A stretch of 64,000 nt of DNA from the NCBI GenBank assembly GCA_025056215.1, contig JANWWC010000001.1, forward strand, positions 372,001 to 436,000, read 5' to 3'. A program made the position numbers and the translations under genes. The first letter of the stretch is position 1. Each line of letters opens with the position of its first letter. The notes beneath the pieces are model-generated. The model saw only the letters and a program-made list of their open reading frames with translations, ran no database searches and had not been told where the DNA came from. Source of the DNA: Cytophagales bacterium (lineage in GTDB: Bacteria; Bacteroidota; Bacteroidia; Cytophagales; Flammeovirgaceae). Below are positions 48,703 to 49,083 of the stretch, piece after piece.

Positions 48703-49083
48703 TTAGGTTTCTACTACCCAAGAAACTAATGCAATTTTTGAGCTATCTTCTTTCTTTTCTAAAAGTAGCACTACTAAAATTTTTATTTTACCAAATCGAA
48801 GCAGTCGAACGTTATTAAAATTTTCTCGAATGTACTCTAAAAGTTCAGCATATTTTACGCCTTGTTCTTGCATAAATTCGTCCCACCAATCTTGAGGAGA
48901 AGCAAGGCGCTCTAAAAATTCCCACGGATTGCGCTCTTCTACGCACGCAAAATCAATATTTTCTTCTGGAAAGGAATTTTTTAAGGTTTTTATTAAATCA
49001 TCGCCAACAGGAATTACACTCCAGCCCGCATCTGTTTCACTCATGAGCACTAAATCAGTAGTGAGTCTTTTTAATTCTTTCAT
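48703..49083 (-). CDS. NuiA-like nuclease A inhibitor family protein
   Basis: A 126-residue acidic protein from the ATG at 49083; a TTG at 49149 would give 148 residues. The early motif LVLMSETDAGW, the SPQDWWDEFMQEQ segment, LLRFGKIKILVVLL and the terminal WVVET match my memory of NuiA, the Anabaena inhibitor of the non-specific nuclease NucA. In that complex a Glu of the first motif and the C-terminal Thr reach the nuclease active site; both are present here (Glu16 and Thr126). No NucA-type nuclease (DRGH motif) is visible in the window. The gene stands alone, divergent from the second SDR gene. Confidence 0.7.
   Translation of the reverse strand: MKELKRLTTDLVLMSETDAGWSVIPVGDDLIKTLKNSFPEENIDFACVEERNPWEFLERLASPQDWWDEFMQEQGVKYAELLEYIRENFNNVRLLRFGKIKILVVLLLEKKEDSSKIALVSWVVET

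Follow-up and report, generated by a model that had tools for sequence, protein, structure and literature searches.

We ask here what a NuiA-like nuclease inhibitor does when no nuclease gene stands near it. The gene in question lies at 48703-49083 of the window, by which we mean the whole 64,000-nucleotide stretch of bacterial DNA analysed in this work. An earlier note on this DNA, which gave no strand, had likened the encoded protein to NuiA, had found no nuclease in the window, and had proposed as target a nuclease encoded elsewhere, an incoming one or something new. NuiA blocks an enzyme that cuts both DNA and RNA. Its Glu24 enters the nuclease active site and Thr135, as the C-terminal residue, has a role there; in the structural study by Ghosh and colleagues, both residues are reported to reach the magnesium of NucA.

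NuiA has been described as a competitive inhibitor overlapping the DNA site (PMC5758888), and the pKd of its pairing with NucA is stated as 11.49 (PMC5374557). PMC5374557 also assigns the D121A change carried by the crystallised complex to NuiA, whereas it is the nuclease chain of 2o3b that has YARGH where the enzymes of the window organism have DRGH. According to PMC4890671, Anabaena NucA has a signal peptide for periplasmic export, and in an engineered kill switch NuiA has been used to shield the cells from leakage of NucA. Among open-licence PubMed Central papers, searched by titles and abstract openings, no paper on NuiA in the bacterial group of the window organism was found.

Methods

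The survey sample comprised 242 genomes of the window organism's order, each at least 90% complete and drawn evenly from a larger group. A nuclease was called NucA-type when its match to the NucA-type domain of the window organism was better than 1e-50; this line was set after the values had been seen, and no genome fell between 7e-39 and 3e-54, which makes the split a sharp one. Fisher tests took genomes or genera as independent, although these are related, and kinship inflates the p-values.

An alignment of 28 rows, in which the window protein is joined by 27 NuiA-family proteins of its own order, was the input for AlphaFold2. The same alignment and the window protein were used as queries in a search for diverged NuiA in the eight genomes with a NucA-type nuclease only, together with G095 and the window organism's own genome (G000), the last of which was matched as expected. 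For the survey of neighbourhoods, up to 6 kb per side were fetched around 89 NuiA loci, eight of the stretches clearly ending at contig ends, and distances were taken to stop-to-stop frames.

Results

The gene and its surroundings

The gene is located on the minus strand, where its open reading frame is intact (Table 1), and the plus strand at the same positions contains many stops. The protein begins with MKELKRLTTDLVLMSETD and ends with SWVVET, Thr126 being its last residue; the MSETD motif occupies residues 14-18, and no signal-like stretch is visible by eye at the N-terminus counted from the ATG. A longer frame of 148 aa opens at an upstream TTG, but similarity to the family profile starts with residue 2 of the ATG form. 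On the same strand a methyltransferase gene comes next, between 47 and about 95 bases away according to which of its start codons is used, and is followed by a gene for a short-chain dehydrogenase, while upstream another short-chain dehydrogenase gene lies in the opposite orientation; none of these three neighbours points to a nuclease. A simple scan, confined to one promoter type, detected no terminator-like site and a single promoter-like site, which lies within the methyltransferase frame and therefore does not serve the NuiA-family gene.

Table 1. Coordinates of the NuiA-family gene and of its conserved codons within the window
Feature	Position	Strand	Details and basis
NuiA-family nuclease inhibitor gene, 126 aa	48703..49083	-	ATG at 49083, TAA at 48703-48705; open reading frame, Pfam, AlphaFold2 model, structure matches
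Glu16 codon (motif MSETD), counterpart of NuiA Glu24	49036..49038	-	28-row and 90-row alignments
Pro63-Gln-Asp-Trp66 codons, identical to Anabaena NuiA Pro73-Gln-Asp-Trp76	48886..48897	-	90-row alignment
Terminal Thr126 codon (motif VVET), counterpart of NuiA Thr135	48706..48708	-	28-row and 90-row alignments

Family, fold and anchor residues

In the profile search that the earlier note had suggested, Pfam PF07924 (NuiA) matched the window protein with an E value of 1e-12 (48.9 bits, cut-off 22.1) over its full length, residues 2-126 being aligned with positions 5-130 of the 130 in the profile. With phmmer, two NuiA sequences were retrieved from among PDB sequences, 2o3b_B (E 7.4e-6) and 1j57 (E 8.7e-6), the matches covering residues 55-110 only, and NCBIfam yielded no match for the protein. 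A pattern scan of genome contigs, able to reach close relatives only, gave 57 matches to it, none of which was confirmed. The AlphaFold2 model has a mean pLDDT of 94.4, and its best match among solved structures is 2o3b_B, the Anabaena NuiA from its complex with NucA (Foldseek E 8.4e-10, TM 0.80), on which it superimposes with Z 15.1 and rmsd 2.9 for 123 aligned residues; residues 1-126 of the model correspond to 9-135 of the chain. Against 1j57, a separate NuiA entry, Z was 6.3. Maf1 and other folds were rejected as structural relatives, having Z below 6; Maf1, the best chain of another family, reached 5.7.

Only four columns of the 28-row alignment are invariant, those of window Leu11, Ser15, Glu16 and Thr126. 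In an alignment of 90 rows, window Ser15, Glu16, Thr17 and Asp18 fall into the columns of NuiA Ser23-Glu24-Ser25-Glu26, and Thr126 into that of Thr135, so the likeness to NuiA seen earlier in MSETD and the terminal VVET holds at both anchors. The glutamate column has E in 85 of the 90 rows, D in four and G in one, and the terminal column T in 83 and S in three. The PQDW stretch is not family-wide, its Q being present in 24 rows and its W in 44.

With NuiA of Anabaena sp. PCC 7120 (2o3b chain B, 1j57, 1ktu; PF07924) the window protein shares the fold over the whole length, the equivalents of Glu24 and Thr135, and PQDW, at 73-76 in the former. It differs in an N-terminus shorter by about eight residues, in the spacing between the first motif and PQDW, and in the first motif region itself (SETDAGW against SESEYPF); 30 of 120 aligned residues are identical (25%). 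It also lacks residues common in the family, among them the Pro that follows SESD and the GL.T before the C-terminal end. The NuiA proteins of its own order (L040-L128 except L126, the window's own) have in common with it the profile match, the near-invariant Ser-Glu, the terminal Thr and the tie to NucA-type nucleases, but none of those in the tree is more than 30% identical to it. Its branch, 2.81 changes per site, is the second longest among 67 rows, which makes its placement in the tree unsure. The window gene thus encodes a strongly diverged yet structurally typical member of the NuiA family, and this assignment, the predicted fold and the two conserved anchor residues are established by the present analysis.

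Nucleases of the window and of the genome

The absence of a DRGH nuclease from the window was confirmed, as none of the 555 window open frames of at least 40 residues has a [DN]RGH motif or is matched in phmmer by either of the genome's own two nucleases. The genome, an assembly of 2.83 Mb in 17 contigs with a completeness of 99.5%, contains a single NuiA gene, that of the window, which lies on contig 9. The search of the whole genome for NucA and EndoG relatives proposed in the earlier note, made with PF01223, returned two Endonuclease_NS proteins, one on contig 10 and the other on contig 13, with no match on any other contig. That no nuclease was visible is accordingly a matter of window size.

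The contig 10 protein (locus L002, 449 aa, domain at G000:C10:293293-294045) matches solved NucA (1zm8) with E 3.7e-73 over residues 196-445, has the DRGH motif, and is a DNA/RNA non-specific endonuclease of NucA type; its N-terminus, read by eye, is lipoprotein-like (...AILTSC). It is 50-71% identical to its relatives among the matches listed. Beside these figures, the identity of at most 30% found for the window protein gives the impression that the inhibitor evolves much faster than its presumed partner. The contig 13 protein (locus L001, 300 aa) has a hydrophobic stretch at the N-terminus and a DRGH motif, and is EndoG-like; it matches NucA (E 1.1e-25), EndoG and EXOG about equally, between 1e-25 and 1e-24. 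Since the NuiA gene and the NucA-type gene are on different contigs, there is no operon link between them in this organism. PF13930, tried as a second nuclease family that could partner NuiA, had no match in any of three genomes (G000, G121 and G173).

Distribution across the order

NuiA was found in 87 of the 242 genomes and Endonuclease_NS in 160, both being present in 85. A NucA-type nuclease is present in 92 genomes, 84 of which have NuiA, as compared with three of the 150 genomes that are devoid of it; counted by genus, the figures are 26 of 32 with and two of 71 without a NucA-type protein. Where Endonuclease_NS is present and the NucA-type is absent, NuiA occurs in one genome of 68. Within the window organism's family (f1, 16 genomes) the window genome is the only one with NuiA and the only one with a NucA-type nuclease, and 12 of the others carry Endonuclease_NS proteins, none of them together with NuiA. 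In this order, NuiA goes with the NucA-like nuclease subtype and not with Endonuclease_NS in general. The picture was the same in an earlier sample of 58 genomes, with NuiA in 13 and Endonuclease_NS in 36, all 13 having both; this sample shares genomes with the 242 and does not count as independent of them.

Neighbourhoods of NuiA genes

A nuclease was present within the fetched stretch, at most 6 kb away, at 33 of the 89 NuiA loci. At eight of these it lies directly beside NuiA, at 54-151 bp; all eight nucleases are NucA-type, 56-61% identical to the enzyme of the window organism, and none of the eight NuiA genes has a HIT fusion. At the remaining 25, NuiA is fused to HIT and the nuclease stands 0.6-5.4 kb away; these fusions all belong to two genera of a single family and represent few independent events. 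No nuclease in the fetched stretch is the commoner state (56 loci, six of whose stretches end at contig ends). The lack of a nuclease near the window gene, which had been taken as remarkable, is therefore ordinary in the order, quite apart from the two enzymes encoded on other contigs.

A HIT (histidine triad) domain, that of a nucleotide hydrolase and absent from the window protein, is fused N-terminally to NuiA in 31 of the 89 loci, which belong to two genera of family f13. An example is L011:1045-1869 (+), with E values of 5.2e-18 for HIT and 5e-30 for NuiA.

Exceptions to the pairing

Three genomes, G093, G121 and G173, have NuiA without a NucA-type nuclease. G093, an assembly of 690 contigs, does have Endonuclease_NS, beyond the 1e-50 line, and in G121 and G173 no Endonuclease_NS protein was detected; G173 is 92% complete, and its nuclease may for this reason be missing from the assembly. 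The single NuiA of G121 (L124) has Asp in place of Glu and has lost the terminal Thr, and that of G173 (L078) keeps Glu but, ending in VVETT, runs on for one residue more than usual. Two further genomes contain second NuiA copies, L115 (G163) and L121 (G147), both without the terminal Thr, the former also without Glu. Judging by these residues, the altered copies (L115, L121, L124 and L078) may have been freed from acting as inhibitors.

Eight genomes, G072, G106, G126 and five more, have a NucA-type nuclease and no NuiA. The search for diverged NuiA in these eight gave nothing credible, the best E values of 0.73 and 0.057 belonging to short partial matches that we took as chance, and inspection by eye of one stretch beside the nuclease per genome, four of them at a contig end or on a short contig, revealed no obvious replacement inhibitor. 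Among the matches listed, the NucA-type protein of the window organism has its closest relatives, with 67-71% identity, in G126 (L138), G106 (L139) and G072 (L140). No NuiA is detectable in these three genomes with the 28-row alignment and the window protein as queries, so a NucA-type nuclease can be carried without a NuiA inhibitor; the three may have another way of staying safe from it.

Discussion

We consider it very likely that the window gene encodes a cytoplasmic NuiA-family inhibitor, the partner of which is most likely the organism's own, presumably exported, NucA-type nuclease (L002), and that it serves self-protection. Of the targets proposed in the earlier note, a nuclease that the genome encodes outside the window is strongly favoured, by L002 itself and by the pairing in 84 of 92 genomes, and the incoming nuclease and the new target gained no ground. 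What speaks against this reading is that the two genes are on different contigs, that the inhibitor is strongly diverged beside a better conserved presumed target, and that eight genomes have a NucA-type nuclease but no NuiA and three the reverse. From these data we infer binding, inhibition, the location of the inhibitor in the cytoplasm, export of the nuclease and the protective role. The nuclease would be made in the cytoplasm and then exported, and the inhibitor would bind those copies that fold too early or leak back, with Glu16 and the C-terminal Thr126 plugging the active site as Glu24 and Thr135 of NuiA are said to do at the NucA magnesium. The layout is the same as in Anabaena, in that the N-terminus looks fit for export in the nuclease but not in the inhibitor: Anabaena NuiA is called 'intracellular' in the title of 2o3b, and the window protein likewise has no signal-like N-terminus and is accompanied by a NucA-type nuclease in the genome. 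With good confidence, the partner nuclease of the window inhibitor can be named.

An immunity protein without an effector of its own, guarding against nucleases of the same fold from other cells, would fit a NuiA gene that stands alone in the window, as well as the two genomes (G121 and G173) that have NuiA and no detected Endonuclease_NS. This is, in our opinion, very unlikely, as 84 of the 87 genomes with NuiA also encode a NucA-type nuclease, and the copies in G121 and G173 are altered at the C-terminus, as may befall inhibitors that have lost their partner. The searches of mobile elements also speak against it: the window protein has no match in plasmid records, of nine pattern matches in viral contigs none was confirmed, and a near-consensus relative, P0002, has no match in phage records. 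The chance is slimmer still that the target, instead of or besides the NucA-type enzyme, is the EndoG-like L001 with its N-terminal hydrophobic anchor. That protein is encoded in the same genome, contains DRGH and resembles NucA (E 1.1e-25), but NuiA is missing from 67 of the 68 genomes that have Endonuclease_NS and no NucA-type protein, and from all 12 such genomes of f1.

The long branch of the window protein, set against a well-conserved presumed target, and the loss of common family residues (for example Pro after SESD and GL.T before the end) could also be explained by a move to a new target that is not a nuclease. We regard this as the least probable reading of all, because the protein retains its two anchor residues, PQDW and the predicted fold, and because this genome alone, among 16 of its family, has the NucA-type nuclease. 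It is likewise improbable, though less so, that we are dealing with a fast-evolved, re-tuned inhibitor which has kept the NuiA fold and the two-residue plug, has largely rebuilt the rest of the interface, and has His-Me finger nuclease targets that differ from, or extend beyond, those of ordinary NuiA, whether the organism's own EndoG-like enzyme or nucleases of competitors. The divergence may reflect either a high tolerance of change in the interface beyond the Glu/Thr plug or a re-tuning of the window protein.

Coming back to the organism's own NucA-type nuclease as the partner, the tie of NuiA to the NucA-like subtype suggests a partner for dozens of NuiA genes that are not linked to a nuclease gene, and the diverged pair of the window organism would show how far the NuiA-NucA interface can change with the Glu/Thr plug kept.

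Genes of this family are also present on cyanobacterial plasmids. P0002 matched 24 plasmid records, all from cyanobacterial genera according to the record names, and such genes are annotated in cyanobacterial plasmid records as 'nuclease A inhibitor family protein'; on a plasmid of Gloeothece verrucosa, the NuiA and nuclease genes overlap.
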